DNA of 64,000 nt from Melioribacteraceae bacterium (lineage in GTDB: Bacteria > Bacteroidota > Ignavibacteria > Ignavibacteriales > Melioribacteraceae). Under the pieces are notes generated by a model. It had not been told where the DNA came from. It ran no database searches and saw only the letters and a list, made by a program, of their open reading frames with translations. Location: the NCBI GenBank assembly GCA_026417375.1, contig JAOADJ010000026.1:1-64000 (forward strand). Reading direction: 5' to 3'. This document shows positions 14,276-58,900 of this stretch, piece after piece. The position numbers were made by a program, and so were the translations under genes. How positions within the stretch are numbered: position 1 is the first letter of the stretch; the number at the start of each line of letters is the position of its first letter.

Positions 14276-14291
14276 TGCAAATATCATTCCA
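14276..14291 (-). promoter_or_regulatory. σ54-type promoter of the sugar operon
   Basis: Minus strand TGG-AATGATATT-TGCA: GG (-24) and GC (-12) are ten bases apart and the -12 box is a full TTGCA. The C after TGG is replaced by A. Predicted transcript start is about 17 nt before the TTG start codon. Confidence 0.7.
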
Positions 14292-14348: not shown

Positions 14349-14370
14349 ATTGCAGGATATTAGCCACTTG
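14349..14370 (-). promoter_or_regulatory. Candidate activator (enhancer) site, copy C
   Basis: Minus strand begins CAAGTGGCTAAT and ends GCAAT, one intact half of the palindrome TGGCTAATATTAGCCA shared with 36345, 45588 and 58879. Its centre is 68.5 bp upstream of the -24 element at 14291. Confidence 0.6.
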
Positions 14371-35994: not shown

Positions 35995-36223
35995 TTTCCT
36001 TGTTTCCTGCTATTTGTTCTGACATTCCTTCTATTTTGTTAAGGGAATTTTTGTTTATAGCTTTTATAATTCCAATAACAATTAAGCTTAACATTGTTGT
36101 TAATAGGATAAAAATTGCGAATGAATTAAGTAGAATTTTCTCTATTGGTAATCCCTTTTGTGTGAAAAAAATTATTGAGAAGAAAAACACTAAAAGACCG
36201 AATTGTAAAACTATCTTGTTCAT
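35987..36223 (-). CDS. Small two-helix membrane protein before fliA
   Basis: 78 residues, not recognised. Two hydrophobic helices (about 5-22 and 32-52) and a polar C-terminal tail (NKNSLNKIEGMSEQIAGNKENE). GGAATGAA precedes the ATG. It is first in the fliA operon, directly behind the σ54-type promoter at 36250-36265, and overlaps fliA by 8 bp. Real translation is likely because of this coupling. Function unknown. Confidence 0.65.
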   Translation of the reverse strand: MNKIVLQFGLLVFFFSIIFFTQKGLPIEKILLNSFAIFILLTTMLSLIVIGIIKAINKNSLNKIEGMSEQIAGNKENE

Positions 36224-36249: not shown

Positions 36250-36265
36250 TGCAAACCTTATACCA
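36250..36265 (-). promoter_or_regulatory. σ54-type promoter of the fliA operon
   Basis: Minus strand TGGTATAAGGTTTGCA: GG and GC ten bases apart and a perfect TTGCA -12 box. Predicted start of transcription is about 15 nt before the ATG of the small membrane protein. Confidence 0.75.
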
Positions 36266-44927: not shown

Positions 44928-45488
44928 TTATTGTAAAATATATTTACTGAAATAAATTGTGTTAACTTTTACTTTGGGCATTAGTTGTTGAACTTTACTT
45001 GTTATTTCCATTCTTAACGTATCTCTGTAAGCCATGTTTGCTAATTGTGTAAGATTTTTACTGCTCATAACAGATATGATCGCATCTTTCAATAAAACAT
45101 CTTTTGCTTTTAATTCATCATGATTTTCCTGTGATGCTACATCAAAACCTAAAGAAGAAAGCAATAATCTTTTACCATCAGTATTTGCCGGATTGATTAT
45201 TAAATCATCAACCACATAAATAAATTTTCCGAATTCAACTTTTTTGTTATCACTTTTTCCTTCTCCTTCTGAATGTTCACTTGTTGCTTCTTCAGATACT
45301 TCTTCTGTTTTTGCTTTTTCTGTTGATGTGCTTTGTTGCATCTTACTTAAAAGAAAATTTGCAGTGATGAAATAAACTGCAACAAGTTGTATTACAAAAA
45401 GTGGAATTCCTATTAACAAAATTTTAATGTTAAAACCAGATTTTTTTCCACCGGAACTTTCAACTTGTTTTTCTTGATCTTCTGCCAT
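44928..45488 (-). CDS. fliL: FliL, stator-associated basal body protein
   Basis: 186 residues: Lys/Gly-rich start, one membrane helix (ILLIGIPLFVIQLVAVYFITANF), an acidic Glu/Ser-rich linker and a periplasmic domain (VDDLIINPANTDGKRLLLSSLGFDV, LRMEITSKVQQL) typical of FliL. It supports stator recruitment under load. It is the first gene of its operon, about 50 bp behind the TGGCAT element. Confidence 0.93.
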   Translation of the reverse strand: MAEDQEKQVESSGGKKSGFNIKILLIGIPLFVIQLVAVYFITANFLLSKMQQSTSTEKAKTEEVSEEATSEHSEGEGKSDNKKVEFGKFIYVVDDLIINPANTDGKRLLLSSLGFDVASQENHDELKAKDVLLKDAIISVMSSKNLTQLANMAYRDTLRMEITSKVQQLMPKVKVNTIYFSKYILQ

Positions 45489-45523: not shown

Positions 45524-45539
45524 TTCAATTGCTATGCCA
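45524..45539 (-). promoter_or_regulatory. σ54-like promoter element of fliL
   Basis: Minus strand TGGCATAGCAATTGAA. The -24 half is near-perfect; the -12 half is TTGAA where TTGCA is expected, so the normally conserved C is missing. Supported mainly by the identical arrangement upstream of flgB. Confidence 0.5.
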
Positions 45540-45587
45540 TTAAAAAACTATTATAAATGTAATTTTTAATTAAGTTTTAGAAAGAGG

Positions 45588-45609
45588 TTTGGCTAATATT
45601 ATGCAGTTG
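45588..45609 (-). promoter_or_regulatory. Candidate activator (enhancer) site, copy B
   Basis: Minus strand CAACTGCATAAT followed by ATTAGCCAAA; matches copy A (58879-58900) at 19 of 22 positions. Its lower end is separated from ATGGCAT by exactly 47 bp, as in copy A. Confidence 0.65.
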
Positions 45610-45728
45610 TTTAGAAGTATTTATTAATTGGAGAATTAATAATTTATTTGAAGAAATTATAAAGGAAATTAAAATGCGTTTTTGAAGTATTGCTAAGATA
45701 TTTTTATATAAAATTGTTTATAAAATCA

Positions 45729-45759
45729 TTGTCGGTCCTGAAGAAATCAAGACCGACAA
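45729..45759 (-). terminator. Hairpin after flgE, probable terminator
   Basis: A perfect 9-bp inverted repeat TTGTCGGTC / GACCGACAA with a 13-nt loop, 46 bp after the flgE stop. On the minus strand it is followed by ATGATTTTAT, a weak T-run, so termination may be partial. Confidence 0.6.
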
Positions 45760-45804
45760 TTAAAAAATATTGAGACAGCTTTTTAGAGAACTATTAGTAA
45801 AATA

Positions 45805-47484
45805 TTATCTGATTAAGTTTGTTATTTCTTGTAATAAATTATCAGCGGTTGTAATAACACGGGCATTAGCCTGAAAACCTCTTTGAGAAACAATCATTCT
45901 TGTAAATTCTTCACTCAAGTCAACGTTACTTTGTTCTAATGCACCGGATTGAACAGTAGTATTTGTATCTTCACCTAAACTACCAATTCTTGGTTCACCA
46001 CTATTAGCATAAGCCAAGTACATATTATCACCAACACTTATTAAACCATTTAAGTTGTTGAAAGTAGCGACCATTATTTGAGCTAAATTTTTTGAACTTC
46101 CATTTGAGAAGATACCAACTATATTTCCATATTGGTCAATGTTCAAATTAGTTAAAGAAGCTGATGGAGAACCATCCTGAGATAAAGCACTAATTACAGA
46201 GCTAGCAGAGGTTTGTGTAACACCACCAAAACCACTTCCAAAATCTAATGAAATGTTTACAGGAGCTGCACCACCTTTTGGACTAAATGAAAATGTTGGA
46301 TTATTTGGAGATATTTTGGCAGGATCTAAAGTACCATCCGGATTAAATTCAATTGTTCCGATTGCACTTGCAACTTTTCCATCTGCTGTACTTGTTCCGG
46401 GAACAGAAACTGTCCATGTCCAAATGTTGTCATCAATCTTTGTCATTTTTAATGTAGCTTGATGAGCTGTTCCTAAAGAATCATAAACAGTTACAGAACC
46501 ACTTACAATATTTGGAATTTTATTATTATCTGCAGATGCACTTAATGTAGTTGTGCTTGAATTTTGAGTTACAATTGTTGAATCGAATGTAAAATCAATG
46601 TTTGAAGATGCAACATTAACGCGATTATTAACGCCATCAAATTTAGCTTTTGAAGCTGCATCTAAAACAAAATTTCCTGTTCCATCATCTTCAAATTTTA
46701 ATGCAGTAATTGTTCCGCTGACTGGAGTTGGTAAATCGTTGCCATCAGCATCTTTTAATGACCAATTTAAAGTATAAACATTATCAGCTGTTTTTTCCCA
46801 GTTAGTAACAAATCTAAAAGATTCACCATATTCATTGTAAACTGAAACTGTGTAATCATTTGTTTTATCGCCAACAGCAAGAGAAGAAGAATTAATATTA
46901 CCACGTTGAACAACTTGTAAAGTTCTGGTTAAATCGCTGTTGCTTTTTAGATTACCGCCCCATTTAATTAAAGTAGTTGAAACTGCAGGTAATTTCAAAT
47001 TAGTATCAATTACAATATCTTCAAGATTATTGCCAGGAGGAATAACACCATCAGAATTAGCAACTTTACCTTGAACTACTGCACCATTTTGTGGACTAAC
47101 TAATTTCCCAGCAGCATCAAAAACAAAAGCACCAGCACGTGAAAAGAATTTTTGTCCATTGTTTTTAAGAACAAACATTCCTTGTCCCTGAAGTGCTAAA
47201 TCAGTTGTAATTCCTGTTCTTTCAAAAGTGCCTTGATTCCAATTGCGGTCGATTGAGTTTACTTTCATACCAAGACCAACTTGATATGAGTTTGTTCCAC
47301 CAGTTTCATCAGTTGGATTTGTACCAGCTTTAACAAATTGATTAAATGTGTCGCTAAAGGTTACGCGTGAACCTTTGAAACCTATTGTGTTAACGTTAGA
47401 AATGTTATTACCAATTACGTCCATCATTGTTTGATGATTACGTAAACCAGAAACGCCAGCGAAAAGAGATGTTAAAAGTGCCAT
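45805..47484 (-). CDS. flgE: FlgE, flagellar hook protein
   Basis: 559 residues, longer than the about 400 of Salmonella. MALLTSLFAGVSGLRNHQTMMDVIGNNISNVNTIGFKG and the C-terminal QSNVDLSEEFTRMIVSQRGFQANARVITTADNLLQEI are hook signatures; NSYQVGLGMKVNSI and GQGMFVLKN fit FlgE rather than FlgG. Extra length is in the middle domains exposed on the hook surface. AGGAGG lies 5 nt before the ATG, and the 96-bp leader forms two hairpins. Confidence 0.95.
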   Translation of the reverse strand: MALLTSLFAGVSGLRNHQTMMDVIGNNISNVNTIGFKGSRVTFSDTFNQFVKAGTNPTDETGGTNSYQVGLGMKVNSIDRNWNQGTFERTGITTDLALQGQGMFVLKNNGQKFFSRAGAFVFDAAGKLVSPQNGAVVQGKVANSDGVIPPGNNLEDIVIDTNLKLPAVSTTLIKWGGNLKSNSDLTRTLQVVQRGNINSSSLAVGDKTNDYTVSVYNEYGESFRFVTNWEKTADNVYTLNWSLKDADGNDLPTPVSGTITALKFEDDGTGNFVLDAASKAKFDGVNNRVNVASSNIDFTFDSTIVTQNSSTTTLSASADNNKIPNIVSGSVTVYDSLGTAHQATLKMTKIDDNIWTWTVSVPGTSTADGKVASAIGTIEFNPDGTLDPAKISPNNPTFSFSPKGGAAPVNISLDFGSGFGGVTQTSASSVISALSQDGSPSASLTNLNIDQYGNIVGIFSNGSSKNLAQIMVATFNNLNGLISVGDNMYLAYANSGEPRIGSLGEDTNTTVQSGALEQSNVDLSEEFTRMIVSQRGFQANARVITTADNLLQEITNLIR

Positions 47485-47502
47485 TTGATCCTCCTTGGTT
47501 TT

Positions 47503-47558
47503 GATTTAGCTTCAGTCAGTCGGCTAAATCCTGGAGCGCCCTTGGAAGGTCCCGCTCC
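47503..47558 (-). promoter_or_regulatory. Two-hairpin leader of flgE
   Basis: Upstream of the flgE ribosome site are two inverted repeats: GGAGCG/CGCTCC (47553-47558 with 47533-47538, 14-nt loop) and GATTTAGC/GCTAAATC (47523-47530 with 47503-47510, 12-nt loop). Neither is followed by a T-run, so they are not terminators. The block is G+C-rich compared with its surroundings. A role in mRNA processing, stability or translation is inferred. Confidence 0.55.
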
Positions 47559-47580
47559 GTTGTTTATTATTATTTGTTAA

Positions 47581-47961
47581 TTAAATTGCAAAAACTACGC
47601 TATCTATATTTGTAAAAACATTTTCGTTCGAGTTAGCAACTTCAATTGCAGTTACAACAGTTCTGTTTGGAATATTTACAATGAATGCTGTCTTATCCAT
47701 CAGGACTAATGAATCTTTACTTCCTTTTGCTTCTGCTTTTTCTACTGCATCCTGAATTTTTGAAATTTCATTTTCACTTAGTTGAATGTTTCTTGATTCA
47801 AGACGTTTTAAAGCATGATTAGAAAATTTTACTTTTTCTAATTCTTCCTTAAAGATTGCTTGAAACTGGTTTGCAGCTTCTCTGCCAACTCTTTTTTGAG
47901 TTAATTCTTCATTTCCAACAATTGGTATAAATGGAACCGAGATGCCATTAATTTCAGCCAT
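47581..47961 (-). CDS. Flagellar operon protein (conserved, between flgD and flgE)
   Basis: 126 residues from MAEINGISV; GGAGG lies before this ATG, and I reject a start 15 bp upstream. It matches the conserved flagellar operon protein of unknown function found after flgD in many phyla: FSNHALKRLESRNIQLSE, AKGSKDSLVLMDKTAFIVNIPNRTVVTAIE and VFTNIDSVVFAI. It probably acts in hook assembly. It overlaps the flgD end by 8 bp. Confidence 0.88.
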   Translation of the reverse strand: MAEINGISVPFIPIVGNEELTQKRVGREAANQFQAIFKEELEKVKFSNHALKRLESRNIQLSENEISKIQDAVEKAEAKGSKDSLVLMDKTAFIVNIPNRTVVTAIEVANSNENVFTNIDSVVFAI

Positions 47962-48649
47962 TATTATCTCCTCCATTGTGATTAATAATTTCTAACACAT
48001 CTGAGAATGAATATTCAGCACCATCAACAACTAATACAGCTCCATTTGCCGAGAAACGTATTCCATTTATTAATCCTTGTTTGAAAGCTGTTGTTGTTAA
48101 TTTTTTGTTATTCATATCTAATGCTTCTATTTCAAATGTGTATTTACCATTTGGTAATTTTCCACCACTATTATCGGAGAAATTATAAGAAAGTTTATTC
48201 GTTCCTAAATTTTTTGGTGGATCGTAAATAGTTTTTACTAATGCTCCTTGTTCGTTATAAATTTTTATTGAAACGGAAGCAACATTATTTGGCAAAGTAT
48301 AACCAATAGTAACATTATTTTGTCCAGTGTTCTGAATTGTGTTGCCATCAATTTTAACTTCCTTACCTATTAATGTTGCAGCTAATGTATTATTAATTGA
48401 TTGAGTCAGAATATAATTTGTATCTATGCTTTTACTAACGTTTGCATTAAGATTTGTTAATTGTTCGAGTGAAGTAAATTGAGCTAATTGTGCTGCATAT
48501 TCTGTTCCGTCCATAGGATTTAATGGATCTTGATTTTTTAATTGTGCAATCATCAGTTTGAGGAAATCATCTTTACCTAAAACACCTTTTTTTGTATTTG
48601 TGTTTTGATTTATTGAAGATGTATTTTGATTTGAAATTCCATCAACCAT
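47954..48649 (-). CDS. flgD: FlgD, hook cap / scaffolding protein
   Basis: 231 residues. LGKDDFLKLMIAQLKNQDPLNPMDGTEYAAQLAQFTSLEQL is the FlgD N-terminal signature; the C-terminal part has an FlgD Ig-like domain (IKIYNEQGALVKTI, GKYTFEIEALD). It caps the growing hook. A σ28-like signal lies inside its coding sequence at 48171-48197, reading towards flgE. Confidence 0.95.
   Translation of the reverse strand: MVDGISNQNTSSINQNTNTKKGVLGKDDFLKLMIAQLKNQDPLNPMDGTEYAAQLAQFTSLEQLTNLNANVSKSIDTNYILTQSINNTLAATLIGKEVKIDGNTIQNTGQNNVTIGYTLPNNVASVSIKIYNEQGALVKTIYDPPKNLGTNKLSYNFSDNSGGKLPNGKYTFEIEALDMNNKKLTTTAFKQGLINGIRFSANGAVLVVDGAEYSFSDVLEIINHNGGDNNG
48171..48197 (-). promoter_or_regulatory. σ28-type signal inside flgD
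   Basis: Minus strand TAAACTTT (48197-48190) and TCCGATAA (48178-48171), 11 nt apart. About 210 bp upstream of the flagellar operon protein and 690 bp upstream of flgE. It falls on codons for KLSYNFSDN, so chance is possible. Confidence 0.5.
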
Positions 48650-48659
48650 TTTATTTTCC

Positions 48660-51600
48660 TCATGCTAAAAATTCTAATGTATTGTAACCTAAGTTCTTTT
48701 TAAGTTTAGGTGTATTTGTTTCTTCAACCGATTCTTCTTTGTCTAATTTTGAATTAAATTTTTTCTTTTCGTTGTAAACTTTTTGATTCTGCTTCTGGCT
48801 ATAATCTGCAAGACTTATATTAATGTTACTTAAAACAATTCCATTCGATTGTAAATTGTTTTTTAATTGTTCAATGTTTGATTGAATGAATTGTTTTATT
48901 TGTTCGTTTTCAACTTCAATTTTGGTTGATATAATATTATCAGTTAAATCAATTATTAAATTTACTTTACCTAAATTCTCAGGAGTTAATTGAAAACTTA
49001 TACTTTGTTTTTCCCCTTGTTGTATAAATTTTGAAAATTCATGTATAATTTCTTCCTGCTTCAAAACTCTGGTTGATTCATAAAATGTTTTTGTTTCAAA
49101 TGTTTGTTTTACTTTTTCGAATTCATTACTTGTCAAACCATTCAAATGATTTACTTCATTTTTTTGATGTTCATTATTTGGCTGAGAATGGTTTTTGTTT
49201 TCGTTACTATTTTTTTCTGAAGTTGTGTTTAATTTTTCGCCTGAGTTATGATTTGCAATTTTATCACTATCGTTTGAATAATTTTGAATAGGTTTTTCGT
49301 TTTCTGTCTTTTTTATATCAGTGTTTTTGGAATCAAAAATTATTTCGTTTTTCAGAGTTGTGTTTTCTTGTTCATGTTTAATATTTAGTTTATTAGTGGT
49401 TGTATTTAAAATTTCATTTTCATTTTTGTTAGTTATTGTTTCTAATTTTTTATCATCTTTTAATTCGGTAGAAGTATTATTGTATTCAACTGTATCTTTT
49501 TCAATCTGTATATTCTTTGTGTTTTTAACACTAATGTTAGTTGATACTTTTGCAATAATTTTTTCTTCATCGAGTTTATTTTTGGGTTGGTTTAATTGTT
49601 GAGCAACTTTTTCTTCTTTATCAACAGATTGATTTTGGTTTACAGTTTTTTCATTAGTTGTTTGAAGCAATTCTTTTGATTGCTCATTTGTTGCAGGTTT
49701 ATTAGAGGATGCATTTATTTCATTTTTTGTTTCTTTATTTAGTTCATTATGCAAGTTTTGATTTTTTATTTCATTAATCTTTTGAGTTTCATCTGTTAGT
49801 TTATCGCTTATTTTATTGATTAACTGTTTTGAATCATTAGAAAAAAGTTTTGTGTCAGCGTTGTTTTGTTTGTCTGAAGTTTCATTTTCTTTAATTAATG
49901 AATCTTTTTGATTTACAGAATTATTTGTTTTCCTTATATCTGAAGTTTCTGTAACATATTCTTTTTTAACAACTTCGTTTTGTGATTCAGTTGGTTTTAA
50001 TGTTATTTGATTATTTTTTTCACCAATTTCATTTTCAACAGAGTAGTTTTCTCTATTAACTTCTTCTTTAAATTTTAAATTAAGAAAATCTATTTTTTCA
50101 AATACATTTTTTTGATTTTGGGTTATAATGTTGTTTACATTATTTTCTTTTTGAGCATTGCTTGTATTAACAAAAGTTTGTTTTACATTTTCTTTTATTT
50201 GATTTTCACTTTTATCTGTTAACTCAACTTTATTATTTCCAACTGAAGAATCTGTTTCAACCTTTTTAGTTAAACTATCTTCATTTTTAATTTCAAGTAA
50301 AGACGAAAGATTATGTTTTGAATTATTTTTATTAAGAACTTCTTCATTTTTGTTTGATTTATAAACTTCAGAGATATTTTCTTTAATAACATTTGTTTTA
50401 GAAAATACCACACTCTTAATTTCCTTCGAATTGTTTAAATCTTTAAAAACACTTTTTTCTTCATCAGATAAATCACTTAATAATTCTGTTAAAGAAATAA
50501 ATTTGTTTTGGTTTTGTGATTGAGTAAATAATCCAACTTTATTTTCATCAAGTTGATTATTGTTTGTAGAGTTATTCAACAAATCAATTTCATTTATATT
50601 GTTATCATTATAATTTAATTGTGATAGTTTATTTTTTATTTGTCCAGTTGAATCATAATTTGTTTTAATTTCTTTAAAATTGTTTTTATGGTTATTTATT
50701 TGTAATAATTTATCATAGGTTTCATTTGGTTGTGTAAAACTTAATTGACCTTTTGTTGTTTTGTTTTCATCTAAAAATATAATAGTTGGTTTATTTTCGG
50801 TTTGTTTGTTCGGATAATATTCTGAATCAATTTTGCTTTCACCATTTTCGAATGAAGTTATCTTTATTATTTCTACTTTAAAGAAATTTGTTTCAGTAGT
50901 TAGTTTTTGCTTTGCTTGGGTTAAGTTTGTTATTTCTTTTTCTAAAATATTTTGCTCGTTGTTTGTTAATTCAGTTTTTTCTTGGAATTGTTTATTCTCA
51001 GAATAATTTTTTACTTTTAATAAATTTTTATTCGAATCACTAATTATATTATGACTTGCTTGCAATATTTTAGATGTTTCTTCGCTTAAAATATTTTGTT
51101 CATTTTTTGTTAGCTCAGTTTTATCAAGTTTTTGTTGTTCATCAAATTTATTTTCAACATTCGTAATATTTATTGACTGAGTTTGTTTTTCATCTACATC
51201 AGAAAAAATATTTTTAATCAATTTATCTTTACTAAAAGCACTATCGGTTAGTATTTTGCTAACAAAAAGAATTTCTTCTTTTTCATCTAAATTATTACCT
51301 GAATCAATATTAATTGGATTAATATTGATAGAAATTTTATTTAAATCATTTTTAAATGTTAAAAATATTGGCTTTTGTTCTTCTATTTTGTTTTTTACAA
51401 AATCATTTGTCTTTGACCCGTTTGCAGTTAAAAATGAATTTATTAATGAAATTATTTTATTTTCATTTACGACAAAATGTTGTTTGGATATTTCTGCGTT
51501 GTCAAGTTTAAATTTGTTTTCTTCTACATCTAACTTTTTATCATTAGAAATAATTGAATTAATAAGACTTGATACAAAAGCAAACTCTTCTGATGAAAGG

Positions 51601-51806
51601 TTAAAAACTTTTTCCTGGGATGAAAAAACTTCGTTAGTTGGATTAATAGAAATACTTTGAAGATCATTTAAGTTCTGATTCTGATCCTCAAATACTTTTA
51701 TTAAATCGGAAAAAAAGAAATTAGCGTCGATGCTTTTTTTTCCATTAATTGCCAAGTTCGAATCCGTTCTACTCAGCCTATCAAAAAAGAAAGTACTCAA
51801 ATTCAT
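48660..51806 (-). CDS. fliK: FliK, hook-length control protein, very large
   Basis: 1048 residues against about 400 in Salmonella. Residues 1 to about 900 are low-complexity Asn/Lys/Glu/Ser/Thr sequence with local repeats (for example KTELTKNEQNIL and KTELTNNEQNIL, 48 residues apart). The C-terminal hook domain (about 925-1003) is clear: SISFQLTPENLGKVNLIIDL and FIQSNIEQLKNNLQSNGI. FliK measures the hook and triggers the FlhB switch. Frame is intact. Position between the MotE-like gene and flgD is standard. Confidence 0.9.
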   Translation of the reverse strand: MNLSTFFFDRLSRTDSNLAINGKKSIDANFFFSDLIKVFEDQNQNLNDLQSISINPTNEVFSSQEKVFNLSSEEFAFVSSLINSIISNDKKLDVEENKFKLDNAEISKQHFVVNENKIISLINSFLTANGSKTNDFVKNKIEEQKPIFLTFKNDLNKISININPINIDSGNNLDEKEEILFVSKILTDSAFSKDKLIKNIFSDVDEKQTQSINITNVENKFDEQQKLDKTELTKNEQNILSEETSKILQASHNIISDSNKNLLKVKNYSENKQFQEKTELTNNEQNILEKEITNLTQAKQKLTTETNFFKVEIIKITSFENGESKIDSEYYPNKQTENKPTIIFLDENKTTKGQLSFTQPNETYDKLLQINNHKNNFKEIKTNYDSTGQIKNKLSQLNYNDNNINEIDLLNNSTNNNQLDENKVGLFTQSQNQNKFISLTELLSDLSDEEKSVFKDLNNSKEIKSVVFSKTNVIKENISEVYKSNKNEEVLNKNNSKHNLSSLLEIKNEDSLTKKVETDSSVGNNKVELTDKSENQIKENVKQTFVNTSNAQKENNVNNIITQNQKNVFEKIDFLNLKFKEEVNRENYSVENEIGEKNNQITLKPTESQNEVVKKEYVTETSDIRKTNNSVNQKDSLIKENETSDKQNNADTKLFSNDSKQLINKISDKLTDETQKINEIKNQNLHNELNKETKNEINASSNKPATNEQSKELLQTTNEKTVNQNQSVDKEEKVAQQLNQPKNKLDEEKIIAKVSTNISVKNTKNIQIEKDTVEYNNTSTELKDDKKLETITNKNENEILNTTTNKLNIKHEQENTTLKNEIIFDSKNTDIKKTENEKPIQNYSNDSDKIANHNSGEKLNTTSEKNSNENKNHSQPNNEHQKNEVNHLNGLTSNEFEKVKQTFETKTFYESTRVLKQEEIIHEFSKFIQQGEKQSISFQLTPENLGKVNLIIDLTDNIISTKIEVENEQIKQFIQSNIEQLKNNLQSNGIVLSNINISLADYSQKQNQKVYNEKKKFNSKLDKEESVEETNTPKLKKNLGYNTLEFLA
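50944..51122 (-). repeat. Imperfect internal repeat in fliK
   Basis: Two 35-bp units (51088-51122 and 50944-50978) match at 30 of 35 positions, 144 bp apart, and encode TELT(K/N)NEQNIL. The spacing is a multiple of three, so the repeat changes length without a frameshift. Confidence 0.65.
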
Positions 51807-52351
51807 TAGTTCACACTTATTATTCTGGTTACAACTTCAGGCTTCAACTCAGCAAGAATTTCAGCCGCTTTTTTCTTTTTCATCTTGAGAAGAATATCTC
51901 TGGCAATATTATCGGAATAATTCGAAATAACTTTAGCAGCTTTTTTTGAATCCATTGATTCATAAATTTTAACTGTTTGTTTAACCCATTCATTGTAGAT
52001 AGAATCTTTTTTTGCTTTAGTATTTTCACTCGCTGGTATTCTAAAAGGAACTTCTGTTGAAATATTATTTTGTGCTGTCTGGTTTTGAGGTTTTAAATTA
52101 TCATTTTTTTCTATTTCAGTTTCTTTAGTTTTTAACGAATCTGATATTGTCTTAAGTGAATCTGCTTTTAATGAATCAACCTTCAATGAATCTGCTTTAG
52201 CTAATTCTTTTTTTTGCTGTAATTCATCTACTCTTGGTGAAAAATCAAATGCAAAAATATTTTTGTATTTAGAGTTAAAATAAATCATTCCAGCTGAAAC
52301 TATTGCAAATAGCAATGAAAAAATCAAACCGTAAACAATTTTATCTTTCAT
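51806..52351 (-). CDS. MotE-like / MgtE-N-type protein between fliJ and fliK
   Basis: 181 residues: one N-terminal membrane helix (IVYGLIFSLLFAIVSAGMIYF), a linker with DSLK repeats, and a C-terminal helical domain (about 130-180) with MDSKKAAKVISNYSDNIA and MKKKKAAEILAELKPEVV, the pattern of the MgtE N-terminal domain found in MotE. Proteins of this kind occur between fliJ and fliK in many species and may chaperone or stabilise motor parts. It overlaps fliJ by 4 bp. Confidence 0.75.
   Translation of the reverse strand: MKDKIVYGLIFSLLFAIVSAGMIYFNSKYKNIFAFDFSPRVDELQQKKELAKADSLKVDSLKADSLKTISDSLKTKETEIEKNDNLKPQNQTAQNNISTEVPFRIPASENTKAKKDSIYNEWVKQTVKIYESMDSKKAAKVISNYSDNIARDILLKMKKKKAAEILAELKPEVVTRIISVN
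51909..51935 (-). promoter_or_regulatory. σ28-type signal inside the MotE-like gene
   Basis: Minus strand TAAAGTTA (51935-51928) and TCCGATAA (51916-51909), 11 nt apart, about 100 bp before the fliK start. The -35 matches 7 of 8 consensus bases. It lies on codons for KVISNYSDN. Confidence 0.5.
52155..52199 (-). repeat. Tandem 15-bp repeat encoding DSLKA/DSLKV
   Basis: Three adjacent 15-bp units (52155-52169, 52170-52184, 52185-52199) each encode DSLK plus one residue in the linker of the MotE-like protein; a fourth, degenerate copy follows. Copy number may vary without breaking the frame. Confidence 0.7.
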
Positions 52352-52785
52352 AGTTTATCACCATCATAATTTCTTAATGCAATTTCATTTAAGTTTTTCA
52401 GTTCATTTCTTCTATCTTCAATCATAAAATTTTCTTTGTCGTTTTCTTTTAATATTTCAAAAGATTTAACTTCTTTTTTTCTTTCAATTAGTTCTTTTTG
52501 TTTTTTATCGAGTCGTTTAAATGCGTCAACTATATTGTTTTCAATAAAAATTAATTCTTCTTCTAAATGACTATCATACATTTTTATGCTTTGATAATCG
52601 GAAACTTTTAACATTTGTTCAGTCATTTTATTCTGTAATTTTTTTCTTTCTTGAATTAAATATTCCTTTTGTTTTTTTAATTCTTCAATCTCAAGATTTA
52701 TTTTAGAAATTTCTTCTTTCGTTTTTTTCTCTAAAATTTCCTTCACTCTTAAAATGGGTTCAAATTTGAATTTATATTTTGCCAT
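52348..52785 (-). CDS. fliJ: FliJ, export ATPase stalk protein
   Basis: 145 residues, a single long charged coiled coil (EEISKINLEIEELKKQKEYLIQERKKLQNKM, DAFKRLDKKQKELIERKKEV). FKFEPILRVKEI at the start is typical of FliJ. It inserts in the FliI hexamer and activates the export gate. It lies 8 bp after fliI. Confidence 0.88.
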   Translation of the reverse strand: MAKYKFKFEPILRVKEILEKKTKEEISKINLEIEELKKQKEYLIQERKKLQNKMTEQMLKVSDYQSIKMYDSHLEEELIFIENNIVDAFKRLDKKQKELIERKKEVKSFEILKENDKENFMIEDRRNELKNLNEIALRNYDGDKL

Positions 52786-52793
52786 AACTTACC

Positions 52794-54116
52794 TTAAAGC
52801 AACGGTCCTTCAATTATTTGATTTAACTTATCAACTGATTGATCGTAAAGAGCTTTTTCAAAAATGTCTTGTTTTAAATATGATCTCAGTAAATTTATTT
52901 TAGAAAGAGCATGATCAATTTGAGGATTACTTCCTTTTACATATGCACCTATGTTAATTAAATCTTCAGCTTCTCGATAAGTTACCAAAATTTCATTAAA
53001 TCTCATTGCTCTTTGAAAATGTTCTCTGTCAACAATATCGGGCATAACTCTGCTAACACTTTGTAAAGTATCAATAGCAGGATAGTGATTTTTATTTGCA
53101 AGCTTTCTTGATAAAACAATATGCCCATCAAGAATTGATCTTGCAGCATCGGCAATAGGTTCAGTCATATCATCACCATCAACAAGGACAGTATAAAGAC
53201 CAGTGATTGAACCTTTTTCTGTATTGCCCGCTCGTTCTAATAATTTTGGAAGTAAAGCAAAAACTGAGGGAGTATAACCTTTAGTTGTTGGTGGTTCACC
53301 AATTGTTAATCCAATTTCTCTTTGAGCCATTGCAAATCTTGTAACTGAATCCATCATCAACATAACATCCATTCCCAAATCACGAAAATATTCTGCAATA
53401 GTTGTAGCCACATAAGCTCCTTTCATTCTGATTAAAGGAGATTTATCACTTGTTGCACACACAACAACAGATCTGCTTAATCCTTCTTCTCCAAGATCAC
53501 GTTCAATAAATTCCCGGACTTCACGACCCCGTTCACCAATTAAAGCTATAACATTAACATCCGCACTTGTATTTCGTGCAATCATTCCAAGTGTTACACT
53601 TTTACCAACTCCACTACCCGCAAAAATTCCAACACGTTGCCCTTTTCCTATTGTTAATAATCCATCAATAGCACGAATACCGGTTTGGATAGGTAAAGAA
53701 ATTCTTTTTCTTTCCAGAGGATTTGGTGGTTCTCTGTGTGAATCACGAAATGATGAATAATTTATTTCTCCTTTTCCATCAATTGGATTACCTAATCCAT
53801 CAATTACTCTTCCTAATAATTCTTTTCCTACACCAACAGAAAAACTTCTTCCGCTTGCTTTAATTTCACATGCGGGAGAAATATTGTGAACTTCTCCAAT
53901 TGCAATTGATAATACTTTTCCATTTTTAAAGCCAACAACTTCCGCTTTACAAATTTCATTTCCATTTTGATCGAAGATAGTACATATTTCTCCTAATACT
54001 GCATTCGGACCAACAGATACTATAACTAAACCAATTACATCAATAACTTTTCCATTAACACGAATTGTTTCAGTGTTTTCAATTATTCGTTTATATTTTT
54101 CAATTAAATGTTCCAT
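52794..54116 (-). CDS. fliI: FliI, export ATPase
   Basis: 440 residues, usual length. Walker A GSGVGKS (167-173), GERGREVREFIE, MMDSVTRFAMAQREIGL (Walker B) and LAERAG-type LLERAGNTEKGSITGLYTVLVDGDD are all intact. It is related to the F1 β subunit and unfolds export substrates. It is 5 bp after fliH. Confidence 0.97.
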   Translation of the reverse strand: MEHLIEKYKRIIENTETIRVNGKVIDVIGLVIVSVGPNAVLGEICTIFDQNGNEICKAEVVGFKNGKVLSIAIGEVHNISPACEIKASGRSFSVGVGKELLGRVIDGLGNPIDGKGEINYSSFRDSHREPPNPLERKRISLPIQTGIRAIDGLLTIGKGQRVGIFAGSGVGKSVTLGMIARNTSADVNVIALIGERGREVREFIERDLGEEGLSRSVVVCATSDKSPLIRMKGAYVATTIAEYFRDLGMDVMLMMDSVTRFAMAQREIGLTIGEPPTTKGYTPSVFALLPKLLERAGNTEKGSITGLYTVLVDGDDMTEPIADAARSILDGHIVLSRKLANKNHYPAIDTLQSVSRVMPDIVDREHFQRAMRFNEILVTYREAEDLINIGAYVKGSNPQIDHALSKINLLRSYLKQDIFEKALYDQSVDKLNQIIEGPLL

Positions 54117-54121
54117 AAAAA

Positions 54122-54733
54122 TTACTGAAGACTATCTTCCAATTTTTTTCTTAACTCGTTAAGTTGAGTAGTAATTCTTGCATCAACATTTCCAATTTCA
54201 GTTTCTATAAAACAACCGCCTCTTTCAAGTCTATCGTCGGCTTCTATTTTAATTTTAGTAAATGAACCTGAGTGAATTAAATTTTTGCTGGCTTCGGTTA
54301 ATTCTTCCAAATCTTTTGGATGTAATTTTAATTTCACATTATTTGCACCCACAACTTTATTAATTGCTTCTCTCACATTTTCATTAATAATATTTTCTTT
54401 TTCGATTTCACGACCTACAATTTTTTTTGCAAGTTCGTAAGCTGTTTCAATCACAAGAAATTCAAATCCTTTTTCCAGTTCAATAAGTTGTTCATCATAT
54501 TGAGTTAAAATATTATATACTTCTTCATACTTTCGGAATAATTTATTGGTATAATCTTGTTCAAGCTCGCGTCTAGTTTTTTCCTGTCCATCTTTAAACC
54601 CAAGTTTGTAATAGTCTTCAAGTTGTTTTTTGAAAATATCACCATCTTCATCTTTAAAAGATGTGTTTCCAATTTTAGCTACTTTAACGGAGCTATTATT
54701 TTTTTTAGATGAAAGTTTAATTACATCAGACAT
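54122..54733 (-). CDS. fliH: FliH, export ATPase regulator
   Basis: 203 residues: basic, unstructured start, a coiled-coil middle (YYKLGFKDGQEKTRRELEQDYTNKLF) and a C-terminal domain (VGRE(I)EKENIINENVREAINKV, LHPKDLEEL, GGCFIETEIGNVDARITTQLNEL) as in FliH/V-ATPase E. It holds FliI inactive and links it to the C ring. It overlaps fliG by 8 bp. Confidence 0.92.
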   Translation of the reverse strand: MSDVIKLSSKKNNSSVKVAKIGNTSFKDEDGDIFKKQLEDYYKLGFKDGQEKTRRELEQDYTNKLFRKYEEVYNILTQYDEQLIELEKGFEFLVIETAYELAKKIVGREIEKENIINENVREAINKVVGANNVKLKLHPKDLEELTEASKNLIHSGSFTKIKIEADDRLERGGCFIETEIGNVDARITTQLNELRKKLEDSLQ

Positions 54734-55766
54734 AAACTTCTTCCGGACCGCCTCTCATATTGAGTGAAATTTCACCTTGTTCTTCAAGTGCTTTTATTAC
54801 ATCAATTATTTTAGCCTGAGCATTTTCAACTTCTTTTAGTTTAACCATGCCCATGTATTGTAATTCTTCTTTAAGTAAATCAGCTGCACGTTCGGACATA
54901 TTTTTGAATATTTTTTCTCTGAGTTTTTCGTCTGCAGTTTTAAGAGCAAGTGCAAGATCTTTTCTATCAACTTCGCGTAATATTTTTTGAATGTCTTTAT
55001 CATTTATATTAACAATTTCATCAAAGATGAACATTAATCTTTTTACTTCGTATGAAGTTTCCGGATCAACATCTTCAAGTTTTGTTAAAATTTCTTTTGC
55101 CATTGAAACATTTGCACGATTAAGAATTGCAGCCAAACATTTTGGTCCACCAAGTTTACCGACTGATTGACTCATCGAAGCACCAGCTATTTCATCAACA
55201 ACATGTTCAATTTGTTTAAGTGTTTGAGGAGCAATTTTACCAAGAGTTGCAATTCTAAAAGCAACATCAACGCGTAAATCTTCGGGTAATTCTTTTAGTG
55301 CATTTGCTGTTTGATCAGGTGCAAGTTGAGATAAAATTAAAGCCATTGTTTGTGGATGTTCTTTATTCAAGAAATTAACAAGTTGTGCAGGTTCAGCTTT
55401 TTTAAGAACATCAAAACCTTTAAGAGTTGTCAATCTTTTAATCTTTTCAATTATCTCACTTGCTTTTGCAGGTCCATATGTTTTTTCAAGAACAGCTTGT
55501 GCGTAATCTAAACCACCTTCTAAAACATATTCACGTGCTGTAACCATGTTATAGAAATCATAAATTACACTATCAACTGTTTTTGAAGAAACATTTTTAA
55601 CCTTTGAAATCTCGGCTGTTATCATTTCTACATCAACCGGATCAAGATGTTTAAGAACTGCAGATGCTGCTTCGATATTCAAAGCAACCATTAGCATTGC
55701 GGCTTTCTGCAATCCTGTAACTTCTTCTTTTACATCTTTTGTTAATGCTTTATCGTTAGATTTCAT
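54726..55766 (-). CDS. fliG: FliG, C-ring switch protein
   Basis: 346 residues. LQKAAMLMVALNIEAASAVLKHLDP, EHPQTMALILSQL and the C-terminal torque helix (DKDIQKILREVDRKDLALALKTADEKLREKIFKNMSERA) are diagnostic, with the charged residues that contact MotA. It overlaps fliF by 11 bp. Confidence 0.97.
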   Translation of the reverse strand: MKSNDKALTKDVKEEVTGLQKAAMLMVALNIEAASAVLKHLDPVDVEMITAEISKVKNVSSKTVDSVIYDFYNMVTAREYVLEGGLDYAQAVLEKTYGPAKASEIIEKIKRLTTLKGFDVLKKAEPAQLVNFLNKEHPQTMALILSQLAPDQTANALKELPEDLRVDVAFRIATLGKIAPQTLKQIEHVVDEIAGASMSQSVGKLGGPKCLAAILNRANVSMAKEILTKLEDVDPETSYEVKRLMFIFDEIVNINDKDIQKILREVDRKDLALALKTADEKLREKIFKNMSERAADLLKEELQYMGMVKLKEVENAQAKIIDVIKALEEQGEISLNMRGGPEEVYV

Positions 55767-57369
55767 CTTCGTGCATCCAAGCGTTTATTAGTTTTGCTGC
55801 ATCCATTGGATTTTTAGTTACATAGTTAATAATTCTTTCTTGCTGTTGTTTCTTTACAAGCGCTTCTTCACTTATTTCATCTTCAATATCTCCCATTGGT
55901 ACTAACATAGATTTCTTTTTAGCAGGAATTGATGCATTTGCTTTAGGAAAACCGGGTGTACCAGTTGGTAAAGAACCTGATGACTGATTTGCCATTGCAA
56001 AGTTGCCTGTGTTTACAGTTCCAATTACAATTCTTTCTGTTTTTAATTTTTTCATTAAACTTTTTAATACAAATATTGAAGAAATTATTGCTACAACGAT
56101 GAATATTAAATTTATCATTTCATTTGTATTTGGAATTGAAGCTGTTCCTGCTTCTTCTATTGTGTTATCAATTGTTTTTGTTTCGAATGGAATATTAACA
56201 ATTGAAAACTGGTCATTTCGAATTGGGTCAACACCAACTGCATTCTTAATAATTTCTTCTAATTTTTTAACTTGTTCTGCTGGTCTTGGTTCATATACAA
56301 TTTCAGTTTTATCACCTTTTTTTACTTCTTTTGGAATATCATTAATAACAACAGCAACACTTAATCTTTTAATATTTCCACTTCCTTCAACAACACGTTG
56401 AATAGTTTTGCTTGTTTCATAATTAGTTATTGAGTTTTCGTTTGTTGCAGCTGTTGAATCTGAATTTTGTTTTCCCGTATTGTTCACTTTAACTGTATTT
56501 TCACTTACAACAACCTGAGTTTCCGGATCATATTGTTCCATTGTTTTTTCAACTTGATCGAAATTCAAATCTGCGTTTACCTGAACCATTGCATTTCCAA
56601 AACCAACAACATTATCAAGAATTGATTGTGCTTTTTCTGCTAAATATTTTTCTACTGATTTTTTAATTTCATATTGTTTAGAAGAAGCAAAAGCTAATGG
56701 TCCATCATCACTTTCTGTATTAAGTATTCTTCCCTTTGTATCTATAATAGAAACTTTTGATGCCTGTAATCCTTCAACACTACCAGTTAACAAGTTTACG
56801 ATTGCTTCAATATTTTCTTTTGGTGGAGTTGAATTGTTTCTCAATTTTAAAACTACAGAAGCAGTGGGAAGTTTTTCTTCTTCTTTAAATAAAGATTTTT
56901 GAGGAATAACAATGTGAACACGAGCTGCGAGAACTCCATCTTGTTGTTGTATTGTGCGAGCAAGTTCACCTTCTAAAGCTCGTTTATAATTCAGCTTTTG
57001 CATAAACTCCGACATTCCCATTGTGGATTTATCAAATATTTCATAACCAATAACTCCACTACTAGGAATTCCTTTTGATGCAAGTGCTAATCTTAGTTCA
57101 TAAACTTTTTCTCTTTGTACTTTAATTGTTTGTCCATTATCGTCAAGTTTGTACATTATTTTTTGACCACTAAGATATTCAACTACTTTTGCGGCATCTT
57201 CTTGTGAAAGGTTGGAATAAAGAGTTGAATAAGTTGGTTCGTTAAGAACGAAGATTAACAATGCAAGCAAAGCAAGTGTTGTAACAACACCAATGCCTAG
57301 CATAATTTTTTGTTTGGGATTTAATTTTCCCAAAATTCCTAAAAATGCTTGTAATGGATTTGTATTCAT
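55756..57369 (-). CDS. fliF: FliF, MS-ring protein
   Basis: 537 residues. Two membrane helices (about 20-45 and 420-445), RBM domains with YSNLSQEDAAKVVEYLSGQKIMYKL, GIPSSGVIGYEIFDKSTMGMSEFMQKLNYKRALEGELARTI, and a C-terminal FliG-binding tail (NYVTKNPMDAAKLINAWMHED). It forms the ring on which the rotor is built. Confidence 0.97.
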   Translation of the reverse strand: MNTNPLQAFLGILGKLNPKQKIMLGIGVVTTLALLALLIFVLNEPTYSTLYSNLSQEDAAKVVEYLSGQKIMYKLDDNGQTIKVQREKVYELRLALASKGIPSSGVIGYEIFDKSTMGMSEFMQKLNYKRALEGELARTIQQQDGVLAARVHIVIPQKSLFKEEEKLPTASVVLKLRNNSTPPKENIEAIVNLLTGSVEGLQASKVSIIDTKGRILNTESDDGPLAFASSKQYEIKKSVEKYLAEKAQSILDNVVGFGNAMVQVNADLNFDQVEKTMEQYDPETQVVVSENTVKVNNTGKQNSDSTAATNENSITNYETSKTIQRVVEGSGNIKRLSVAVVINDIPKEVKKGDKTEIVYEPRPAEQVKKLEEIIKNAVGVDPIRNDQFSIVNIPFETKTIDNTIEEAGTASIPNTNEMINLIFIVVAIISSIFVLKSLMKKLKTERIVIGTVNTGNFAMANQSSGSLPTGTPGFPKANASIPAKKKSMLVPMGDIEDEISEEALVKKQQQERIINYVTKNPMDAAKLINAWMHEDEI

Positions 57370-57371
57370 AA

Positions 57372-57662
57372 TTATACTGGCGTCCTTGTTAATTCTTTAA
57401 ACATATCTATTGCTTTGTTTCTTATTTCCATTAATAGTTCAAGATTAGTTTTTGCTTTTTCACCTGCAATCATAACTTCATGAAGTTCAACACCATTGCC
57501 ACTTACAAAATCCTGAATTGCTTTTTGAGATTCCTGTTGTGATTCATTAACTGTTTTTATTAATTCAGTTAAAGCATTACCAAAATTTTCTGTACCAACA
57601 TTTTTATTTTTTTCAGGTTGTAATGGTGATGGAAGTTGAATTCCAAATCCTTCTATTTTCAT
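57372..57662 (-). CDS. fliE: FliE, MS-ring/rod junction protein
   Basis: 96 residues with FGNALTELIKTVNESQQESQKAIQDFVSGNGVELHEVMIAGEKAKTNLELLMEIRNKAIDMFKELTRTPV, the complete FliE domain. It links the MS ring to the rod. It is 2 bp upstream of fliF. Confidence 0.95.
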   Translation of the reverse strand: MKIEGFGIQLPSPLQPEKNKNVGTENFGNALTELIKTVNESQQESQKAIQDFVSGNGVELHEVMIAGEKAKTNLELLMEIRNKAIDMFKELTRTPV

Positions 57663-57664
57663 TT

Positions 57665-57892
57665 TTAACCTCTCTTATCAAAGAGTGAACCTACATGCAA
57701 ACCGGAAACTTTTCCTTTTGCATTGTAGAATTGATAATTCATTACTTCTTCTTTTTTGTTTGGGTATAATTCAGAGAAAAATTTTTTTTCATCATTTGTA
57801 ATTGTTTTGTTTTCAACTTGACGCATTTCGTTATTAACTTGTCTTACATAGTTGGTTGAATAATTACCTATAACATTTGTATTTATTTTCAT
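57665..57892 (-). CDS. Unrecognised small protein between flgC and fliE
   Basis: 75 residues, not recognised. Polar N-terminal half (NYVRQVNNEMRQVENKTITNDE), then FFSELYPNKKEEVMNYQF and GKVSGLHVGSLFDKRG, a Gly/aromatic motif that looks constrained. No signal or membrane segment. It is 1 bp after flgC and 2 bp before fliE, so translation is very likely. The place in the rod block suggests an assembly role at the rod/MS-ring stage (inference). Confidence 0.7.
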   Translation of the reverse strand: MKINTNVIGNYSTNYVRQVNNEMRQVENKTITNDEKKFFSELYPNKKEEVMNYQFYNAKGKVSGLHVGSLFDKRG

Positions 57893-57893
57893 T

Positions 57894-58397
57894 TTATATC
57901 TCCAAAGAATCTTTTGCCATTTGTTTAGCTGAATTTAATGCTTGAAGATTTGCTTCATAAGTTCTTGTTGCAGCAATCATTTCAACCATTTCGTTGATTA
58001 CATTTACATTCGACATTTCTACATAACCATCTTTATTTGCATCTGGATGTTCGGGCATGTAAATAATGTCTCCCGGTTTAATATCAATCATTTCATTCAG
58101 TTTTGCTTTACCCTGATCAGCTTCAATTTTTAATTCTTCCGGCAATTGAATATTTGAAATGTGATTTGGATTTGTTGTGTTTAATCTAATTGTTTTTGAT
58201 TCGATTGAAAGATTTTCTGCAAAGTTATTTTTTTCAACTTCTACTTTTAAATATTTTCTTTTGTATGGTTCACCATTTTCTGTTCTGACGCTATCGGCAT
58301 TTGCAATGTTTTGAGAAATGAGATCCATTTTTTTTCTTTGGATGCTCATTCCTTTTGCACTGAAGTTTAAACCGAATAAACTTCCACCAATTTTCAT
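57894..58397 (-). CDS. flgC: FlgC, proximal rod protein
   Basis: 167 residues; FGLNFSAKGMSIQRKKMDLISQNIANADS and the C-terminal VNVINEMVEMIAATRTYEANLQALNSAKQMA are the FlgC signatures. Overlaps flgB by 4 bp. Confidence 0.96.
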   Translation of the reverse strand: MKIGGSLFGLNFSAKGMSIQRKKMDLISQNIANADSVRTENGEPYKRKYLKVEVEKNNFAENLSIESKTIRLNTTNPNHISNIQLPEELKIEADQGKAKLNEMIDIKPGDIIYMPEHPDANKDGYVEMSNVNVINEMVEMIAATRTYEANLQALNSAKQMAKDSLEI

Positions 58398-58786
58398 CCT
58401 ACACCTCCACCTTTAATTACTTTTTGTAGCGATTTGTAATAATCACCTACTTTACGTGAAGCAAATTTGAAGCGTAATGTATTTTCAGCAAGTTCACTCA
58501 TTTCTCTTTCTATATTTACATTATTAACACCTGATTCCATTTCTTCTGAGTTATCTTCAATGTATTCAAATTTTTTTGATTGATTTGGATTCGTGTTAAT
58601 GTCAAGGTGTTTTTCATTTGTTTTTTTTAGGAGCGAACCTGTTGATTCTTGTAAAATATCTTTGAACACAACATCTTGCCGACGATAATTTTCTGTTCCG
58701 ATGTTGGCAATATTTTTTGCAATTACTCTGTTTTTTTCCGAACAATAATCAAGCAAATTAGTAAGTAATTTTACTGAAGATGGCAT
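58394..58786 (-). CDS. flgB: FlgB, proximal rod protein
   Basis: 130 residues; LLTNLLDYCSEKNRVIAKNIANIGTENYRRQDVVFKD and VNIEREMSELAENTLRFKFASRKVGDYYKSLQKVI are typical. It heads the basal body operon. A σ54-like element (58815-58830) and an activator-like palindrome (58879-58900) lie upstream. Confidence 0.95.
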   Translation of the reverse strand: MPSSVKLLTNLLDYCSEKNRVIAKNIANIGTENYRRQDVVFKDILQESTGSLLKKTNEKHLDINTNPNQSKKFEYIEDNSEEMESGVNNVNIEREMSELAENTLRFKFASRKVGDYYKSLQKVIKGGGVG

Positions 58787-58814
58787 TTTAACCTTTCAAT
58801 TTTGTGAAAATAAA

Positions 58815-58830
58815 TTCCAAATTAATGCCA
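58815..58830 (-). promoter_or_regulatory. σ54-like promoter element of flgB
   Basis: Minus strand TGGCATTAATTTGGAA. The -24 half is near-perfect; the -12 half is TGGAA rather than TTGCA. Like the fliL element it is preceded by a T-run and ATGGCAT. Confidence 0.5.
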
Positions 58831-58878
58831 TTTAAAAAGGCTTAGAAAATTGAATATTTGAAATATTGTGGAGAGTTT

Positions 58879-58900
58879 TTTGGCTAAAATTAGCCAGTTG
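58879..58900 (-). promoter_or_regulatory. Candidate activator (enhancer) site, copy A
   Basis: Minus strand contains TGGCTAATTTTAGCCA, the most symmetric of four related sites: GGCTAA and TTAGCC separated by 2 bp, flanked by CAAC and AAA. Its lower end is exactly 47 bp from ATGGCAT in front of flgB. Confidence 0.65.

Follow-up and report, generated by a model that had tools for sequence, protein, structure and literature searches.

The minus strand of a 64,000-bp stretch from a Melioribacteraceae genome (contig C17, positions 1 to 64000; hereafter, the window) carries a cluster of flagellar and chemotaxis genes. An earlier note on this DNA pointed out that the control regions of two of these genes, flgB and fliL, contain nearly the same 22-bp site at the same distance from an ATGGCAT element. 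This raised the question of whether the common geometry reflects a selected promoter architecture and which regulatory proteins might read it. The genome is 2.83 Mb in 58 contigs (29% G+C), the contig carrying the window is 67.7 kb long, and the nearest named relative of the window's FlgB is that of Stygiobacter electus (90%), which places the source as a Stygiobacter-like member of the Ignavibacteria, in a family whose free-living members have received little study. The results described below make it highly probable, as judged from sequence comparisons, that the sites are upstream activating sites of one bacterial enhancer-binding protein (EBP), most likely an NtrC-type response regulator encoded just beyond the window, and that they are phased to σ54 promoters.

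A site and a promoter-like element shared by flgB, fliL, and fliA

The shared geometry was exact, as the earlier note had said. The plus-strand 22-mers at 45588-45609 (TTTGGCTAATATTATGCAGTTG, fliL) and 58879-58900 (TTTGGCTAAAATTAGCCAGTTG, flgB) matched at 19 of 22 positions and differed at 3, and the complement of ATGGCAT (45534-45540 for fliL and 58825-58831 for flgB) was 47 bp away in each case by hand count. Read on the minus strand, both regions followed a two-part plan that was also found at fliA: a 20-bp site, CAASTGnnnAATWTTAGCCA, a gap, and TGGYAY-N5-TTG. Gaps were measured from the end of the 20-bp site to the TGG of the promoter. The features were as follows.

58881 to 58900, minus strand: putative activator site upstream of flgB, CAACTGGCTAATTTTAGCCA; perfectly palindromic in its 16-bp core
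58815 to 58830, minus strand: flgB σ54-type promoter, TGGCATTAATTTGGAA; gap of 50 bp
58394 to 58786, minus strand: flgB, 130 amino acids; NCBIfam FlgB model, 92.0 bits (cut-off 59.05)
45590 to 45609, minus strand: putative activator site upstream of fliL, CAACTGCATAATATTAGCCA; weight matrix match
45524 to 45539, minus strand: fliL σ54-type promoter, TGGCATAGCAATTGAA; gap of 50 bp
44928 to 45488, minus strand: fliL, 186 amino acids; all NCBIfam matches are FliL models, below cut-off (best 77.0 versus 187)
36328 to 37170, upstream of fliA: ParA/MinD-like gene that holds the fliA site
36347 to 36366, minus strand: putative activator site upstream of fliA, CAAGTGGCTAATAATAACCA, within the 3' end of the upstream gene
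36250 to 36265, minus strand: fliA σ54-type promoter, TGGTATAAGGTTTGCA; gap of 81 bp (50 plus three turns)
35987 to 36223, minus strand: small open reading frame (ORF), 78 amino acids, between the promoter and fliA
35362 to 35994, minus strand: fliA-like σ70-family factor, 210 amino acids; Sigma70_r2 and r4 above Pfam cut-offs

The σ70-family factor is presumably FliA, given its position in the flagellar cluster.

A weight matrix trained on 57 flgB and fliL sites from other genomes, with the window's own genome excluded, gave its two highest scores in the window to these sites (30.5 and 28.8 bits) and its third highest to that of fliA (21.8 bits); across 20 windows simulated with matching first-order composition, the top score was 15.8 bits. 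Sites with at most 2 mismatches to TGGCTAANNTTAGCCA numbered 6 in the whole genome, and 4 of them were on the window's contig, which makes up 2.4% of the genome (P of ~5e-6, or 0.003 without the two sites that defined the pattern). The genome-wide number was not above that of a reversed-pattern control (6 versus 7), so the signal is carried by place and context, not by number. These comparisons led us to conclude that the flgB and fliL pairing is not chance. One further genome-wide match was at C53:225098, and a site with 2 mismatches at C27:29510-29529 was in apparent coding sequence and was taken as chance. A stricter pattern that joined TAATATTAGCCA, the gap, and TGGYA matched fliL alone in this genome.

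A perfect palindrome was rejected as the definition of the site: among the window sites, the 16-bp core was exact at flgB alone, and in relatives one side was kept as CA..TG and the opposite side as TTAGCCA, not the full palindrome. Positions 1, 2, 10, 19, and 20 were invariant across the 57 training sites, positions 5, 6, and 18 were nearly so, and positions 3 and 4 of CAASTG were variable; this invariance is partly built in, because the sites were chosen by their likeness to the consensus.

Spacing of the two elements in related genomes

Of the 57 genomes of the family, 43 had a FlgB match, 42 had a FliL match, and 46 had a match to the fliA product. The first set of upstream regions consisted of 30 each for flgB, fliL, and fliA (18 to 20 genera per gene in this set alone), and the second set, fetched once the phase rule existed, consisted of 12 flgB, 12 fliL, and 15 fliA regions. 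Regions were scored for 42 of 43 flgB, 42 of 42 fliL, and 45 of 46 fliA genomes, or 129 in total; the flgB region of G027 (L326) was too short and was dropped, and a fliA fragment of G021 was left out. In each region, we took as the site the sequence that scored highest with the matrix or agreed best with the consensus, with no score threshold, and a few were weak. The promoter search reached 110 bp beyond the site for first-set flgB and fliL and covered 30 to 140 bp beyond it for first-set fliA and 30 to 130 bp for the second set. Two assignments were made by hand. The best hit at the G042 flgB gene was a wrong neighboring site and was replaced (gap of 51 bp), and the fliA region of G046 contained two promoter matches (gaps of 65 and 81 bp), of which the one at 81 bp was chosen as the orthologous TGGTAC..TTTGCA.

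A phased promoter match followed the site in 127 of the 129 regions, in agreement with the proposal that the architecture is selected. The 127 gaps, 38 of which came from the second set, formed clusters at 48 to 53 bp (72 gaps), 59 to 62 bp (8), 69 to 72 bp (22), and 79 to 85 bp (25), with none between, or approximately 50 + 10.5k bp. The deviation from this phase was within 2 bp for 123 gaps, within 2.5 bp for 125, and at most 3.5 bp. All 89 first-set gaps were within 2 bp (the G054 flgB region had no promoter in range). For the 38 second-set gaps, 34 were within 2 bp, 36 were within 2.5 bp, and all were within 3.5 bp. The best period for fliA was 10.6 bp (Rayleigh P of ~1e-9 with 30 genomes and of ~4e-5 with the medians of 19 genera), and the phase was seen again in the second set (P of ~1e-5 for 27 fliL and fliA gaps and 0.003 for the 15 fliA gaps alone). 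On a tree of 30 activators (see below), the number of turns changed at least 4 times for fliA (22 genomes), at least 2 times for fliL (21 genomes), and not at all for flgB (21 genomes). Two members of one genus had fliA gaps of 72 and 81 bp.

The promoter pattern was found past the site in 59 of 60 first-set flgB and fliL regions (a figure that counts G042 with the wrong neighboring hit) and in 38 of 39 second-set regions, or 97 of 99 together. As controls, we searched an equal span upstream of the site (0/59 and 0/39, or 0/98) and the opposite strand (1/60 and 0/39, or 1/99); these controls left out the first-set fliA regions. When the matrix trained on flgB and fliL was applied to the first-set fliA sites, 30 of 30 scored at least 15.9 bits, and 32 of the 39 second-set sites scored at least 15.8 bits.

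Similar results were obtained with 20 named records that contained a FlgB relative, under Stygiobacter, Ignavibacteria/Ignavibacterium, Melioribacteraceae, Bacteroidetes/Bacteroidota, or Bacterium BMS3Abin03 titles: 19 had the site and the promoter 49 to 51 bp apart. In 8 records from other phyla, neither the site nor the promoter was found before flgB.

The comparison of related genomes suggested in the earlier note thus bore out its architecture, with both elements kept and the spacing kept as a helical phase, and it changed the reading from an exact distance to a fixed face of the helix. Base-exact spacing did not hold: gaps shifted by 1 to 2 bp and, in fliL and fliA, by whole helical turns. 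The 47-bp spacing was therefore rejected as a conserved trait, as the flgB and fliL gaps were equal in 9 of the 38 genomes in which both were measured, this genome included, and exact equality of the two distances is by itself weak evidence. The T-run before ATGGCAT, which the earlier note had seen in both regions, was not generally kept in relatives (by eye). A distance that changes by whole turns only, as these sequences suggest, is what would be expected of a helically phased enhancer.

A probable activator encoded next to the window

Just beyond the window, at C17:66167-67555, is a gene for a 463-amino-acid response regulator. Three of its domains scored above Pfam cut-offs (PF00072, 91.4 bits; PF00158, 236.3 bits; PF02954, 37.1 bits), which gives it the receiver, the σ54-interacting AAA+ domain with GAFTGA (read in the translation), and the Fis-type helix-turn-helix of an NtrC-type regulator. 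It passed no NCBIfam cut-off among 17 models with E values up to 1e-80; the scores were 410.4 versus a cut-off of 558.6 for NtrC (TIGR01818), 331.6 versus 750 for FlgR, and 348 versus 750 for FlbD. With an orthologue threshold of E ≤1e-150, the regulator and FlgB were both present in 41 of 57 genomes and both absent from 12, and 4 genomes were discordant (Fisher P of 1e-8). The recognition helix was near-invariant across 30 orthologues, and at 7 of the 30 loci a site of more than 15 bits was located downstream of the activator gene, within ~130 bp of its end. Based on this co-occurrence and position, the C17 regulator is the most likely protein to bind the flgB, fliL, and fliA sites.

In the circuit that we propose, a dimer of the activator would sit on CAASTGnnnAATWTTAGCCA, with its center near -84 from the predicted transcription start. 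The phosphorylated activator would assemble into a hexamer, bend the short, stiff intervening DNA, and open σ54 polymerase at TGGYAY-N5-TTG. Because the intervening DNA is only 50 to 85 bp, the site would have to face the polymerase, and the gap could change only by whole helical turns. The targets would be flgB, fliL, and fliA together with the small ORF that precedes it; two further genes, one for a HEAT-repeat protein and one for a nucleotide-sugar epimerase, are probable targets as well. Transcription of late genes would in turn be driven by FliA.

A number of observations weigh against this proposal. First, the regions are not all alike. The flgB region of G045 has the site and no recognized promoter, and in that of G054 (L047) the gap is 171 bp, 5 bp out of phase, with an apparent insert containing inverted repeats between site and promoter; phase should matter less at such a distance. 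In the second set, 7 of 39 sites scored below 15.8 bits, the lowest at 3.9 bits (G014 fliA), and one named record (L129, BMS3Abin03) has no flgB site or promoter within 400 bp. Other candidate targets in G044 (gap of 63 bp) and G049 (gap of 67 bp, gene unclear) fit the phase less well. Second, related genomes are not independent, and for the 55 gaps longer than 54 bp the best period in the tried range was ~11.0 rather than 10.5 bp, which is still a helical repeat. Third, the four discordant genomes consist of two with FlgB and the flgB site and no activator match at E 1e-150 (G043 and G052) and two with the activator and no FlgB match (G022 and G033). Finally, the genome encodes 13 other strong σ54 activation domains, each a possible binder, and co-occurrence was computed for the C17 regulator only.

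The last two points bear directly on the strongest alternative, namely, that the site and the σ54 promoter are as described and another EBP or a heteromer binds, with the neighboring regulator acting elsewhere. The 14 strong activation domains in the genome and the flgB sites kept in G043 and G052 would fit such a binder, and FleQ/FleT of Rhodobacter offers a precedent for a hetero-oligomeric flagellar activator (PMC7277832). Against it stand the agreement between the C17 orthologue and FlgB in 53 of the 57 genomes, in a comparison made for this regulator alone, the near-invariant recognition helix, and the sites just past the activator gene. We consider a different binder unlikely.

Two side observations concern the regulator. 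A PAS-domain histidine kinase encoded in the flagellar cluster (window positions 16250-18100, minus strand) is a candidate partner for it. In the G033 genome, which is 99% complete, the activator is present, as is a FliA-like gene preceded by a phased site (gap of 83 bp), but neither FlgB nor FliL was matched; the circuit may be a relic there or may serve another purpose.

The -12 box and σ54

The earlier note had observed that the -12 halves of the two promoters deviate from the consensus in the same place, and this was correct. An A replaces the consensus C in both (TTGAA in fliL and TGGAA in flgB), and flgB additionally has a G in place of the second T, as do 3 of 29 flgB promoters with this genome included. 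The published σ54 consensus is TGGCACN5-7TTGCT (PMC12316311). The variant -12 box that the note offered as one explanation was supported in the family, in that the consensus C was found in 8 of 82 flgB and fliL promoters and in 18 of 45 fliA promoters. By gene, the C followed TTG in 6/40 flgB, 2/42 fliL, and 18/45 fliA promoters overall (first set, 6/29, 1/30, and 13/30; second set, 0/11, 1/12, and 5/15). The promoters therefore have GG at -24, TTG at -12, and fixed spacing (97/99 versus 0/98 and 1/99 in the controls) and generally do not have the C after TTG that completes the GC doublet, which makes them a lineage variant rather than the classical consensus.

The other explanation in the note, a different sigma factor, is unlikely. 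RpoN was found in 26 of 28 family genomes searched, with one match in this genome (on C19), and in all 26 RpoN loci that we read (two weak extra matches, L261 and L262, were left out) the position of E378 was Ile and the Arg at R383 was kept. By our own count in an alignment to chain 5ui8_M, E378 corresponds to Ile392 of this genome's RpoN. Earlier work implicates E378, together with L25, genetically in recognition of the -12 GC (PMC4496707) and describes E378 and R383 as highly conserved, with crosslinker residues at both positions crosslinking to promoter DNA (PMC5505868). An altered σ54 with Ile at the E378 position is thus a better account than a different factor, and the Ile may be the reason that the -12 C was lost; A+T-rich drift by itself could also explain this. 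In the case of G018, a genome that is 99% complete and has phased flagellar promoters, no RpoN match was found, which might be an assembly gap or a loss.

These RpoN data also bear on a second alternative to the proposed activator circuit, namely, that an ordinary repressor or a σ70-type activator occupies the site and TGGYAY-N5-TTG does not belong to σ54. The -12 C is absent at most promoters, and the promoter patterns that we used had TGG and one G within the -12 box as fixed bases, so the invariance of the GG and of the final G of TTG is not independent evidence. Such a reading has to contend with the occurrence of the pattern after the site and almost nowhere in the upstream and opposite-strand controls, with the phased distance, and with RpoN in 26 of 28 genomes, and we regard it as very improbable.

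The loss of the -12 C may be part of a family-wide rewritten σ54 promoter code in which Glu378 became Ile, C at -12 is no longer required, the box has drifted to TTGA, TTGT, or TTGG, and the -24 GG and TTG are retained; a loosened -12 check would shift weight to the helix-phased activator site. We hold this reading tentatively and put its chances at somewhat under even. Our confidence was lowered by a search for TGGCAC-N5-TTG in six family genomes (one without matches), in which the reversed control outnumbered the matches (50 versus 38), so that many of the matches may be chance. The next base in the 23 intergenic matches was A in 11, T in 8, C in 2, and G in 2; in the 15 coding matches, it was G in 7, A in 3, C in 3, and T in 2. 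Among the intergenic sites, 13 were 31 to 56 bp before an open frame, a position expected of a promoter (A in 7, T in 3, G in 2, and C in 1). In this genome alone, TGGCAY-N5-TTG had 19 matches versus 13 in the control, and 13 were intergenic (next base A in 7, G in 4, T in 1, and C in 1). Intergenic and coding calls were made from ORFs alone, and the two lists overlap and include a few flgB and fliL promoters. It seemed, on this weaker evidence, that the variant -12 box extends to other σ54-like sites.

The weakest alternative, to which we give next to no credence, is that the two distances agree by coincidence or because one control region was recently duplicated: the gaps are equal in only 9 of 38 genomes, so the equality seen here could be luck within a narrow permitted range, but the 47-bp spacers are unlike and both elements persist before each gene throughout the family, which refutes coincidence and duplication as accounts of the conservation.

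Further candidate targets and other σ54-type sites

A two-part control region with a weaker site was also located before a fourth gene in the window.

14351 to 14370, minus strand: weak putative activator site, CAAGTGGCTAATATCCTGCA; 7.1 bits (20.9, 23.3, and 28.1 bits in relatives)
14276 to 14291, minus strand: epimerase σ54-type promoter, TGGAATGATATTTGCA; gap of 59 bp (50 plus one turn)
13174 to 14247, minus strand: UDP-N-acetylglucosamine 2-epimerase-like gene; PF02350, 255.7 bits

Epimerase orthologues in relatives have the site before the gene with gaps of 58 (G008), 59 (G035), and 61 bp (G006), and the gene is a probable further target. The HEAT-repeat gene past the activator has a site of 17.2 bits, a gap of 51 bp, and AGGCAT in place of TGGCAT, and a protein resembling it in relatives has gaps of 51 (G008) and 50 bp (G031). 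A 612-amino-acid protein is also encoded in the cluster (window positions 14399-16237, minus strand), and it had no Pfam match at E 1e-5.

Other σ54-type sites were noticed elsewhere. The site TGGCACAAGCATTGAA (L207; C6:71193-71208, minus strand) is after an activator gene and faces an ORF-free stretch of ~100 bases that has a predicted fold of -29.9 kcal/mol (z of -3.7) and a T-rich end and is upstream of genes read as rpmH and rnpA; the stretch is a candidate σ54-driven small RNA. The site TGGCACAATCATTGAA (L215; C35:113803-113818, plus strand) is before an ORF-free hairpin with a T-run (z of -2.3; 5 of 200 shuffles were as good). Neither RNA-like locus had an Rfam match near the gathering score.

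In three genera, a TGGCAC-N5-TTG site (TTGAA, TTGCA, and TTGTT) is 51 to 56 bp before genes with similar N-termini, which we take to be small heat-shock protein genes, an assignment not confirmed by Pfam. One such site, TGGCACATTCATTGAA (L206; C4:242-257, minus strand), is 51 bp before a gene read as Hsp20-like, whose first 60 amino acids had no Pfam match; similar sites and genes are found in G031 and G008.

Comparison with known systems and significance

Sigma-54 flagellar hierarchies with an NtrC-type activator are already well known (PMC3930126). The FlgS/FlgR systems of Helicobacter and Campylobacter described there resemble the proposed circuit in their NtrC-type response regulator and σ54 flagellar genes, but Helicobacter pylori FlgR is without a DNA-binding domain and that of Campylobacter jejuni is dispensable, whereas a conserved DNA site is found here. 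In the Fla1 system of Rhodobacter sphaeroides (FleQ/FleT and RpoN2), σ54 and an activator likewise drive flagellar genes and fliA; that species differs in having four RpoN copies and a hetero-oligomeric activator, whereas this genome has one RpoN match (PMC7277832). FlbD of Caulobacter is a σ54 activator of the same superfamily, and the C17 regulator falls below the FlbD cut-off.

The closest parallel for the spacing is Vibrio qrr. There, 61 enhancers bound by LuxO have natural loops of ~80 to 120 bp that cluster at ~11-bp steps (PMC4740811), and the NtrC-like activator, the σ54 promoter, and the quantized loop lengths are all shared with the family studied here. The qrr promoters differ in that they serve quorum-sensing RNA genes, their activator sites are in tandem, and their loops are longer; the flagellar genes here have a single near-palindrome at 48 to 85 bp. 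With regard to the -12 box, RpoN1 and RpoN2 promoters of R. sphaeroides are reported to differ at -11 and two Bradyrhizobium consensus forms at -12 (PMC3162934). These are likewise natural one-base changes in σ54 preference near -12, but they come from species with several σ54 copies, whereas in most genomes here a single RpoN was matched, and E378 is replaced by Ile. Judged by the literature matches listed, what appears to be new is the site itself, its connection to an activator that falls outside those named families that we tested, the short-range phased flagellar series, and the occurrence of the -12 change together with the change at E378.

The results provide a concrete proposal for a flagellar circuit in the Ignavibacteria, with a site, a promoter, a probable activator, targets, and a FliA hierarchy, and the titles and abstract openings listed contained no earlier circuit of this kind for the group. 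For short σ54 enhancers, the gaps found in nature add up to a sizeable record of helical phasing in evolution, beside that of Vibrio qrr. With Ile at the E378 position and the -12 C lost, the open question of what reads the -12 GC becomes directly testable by a residue swap. Scans with the standard consensus may miss σ54 promoters in this group.

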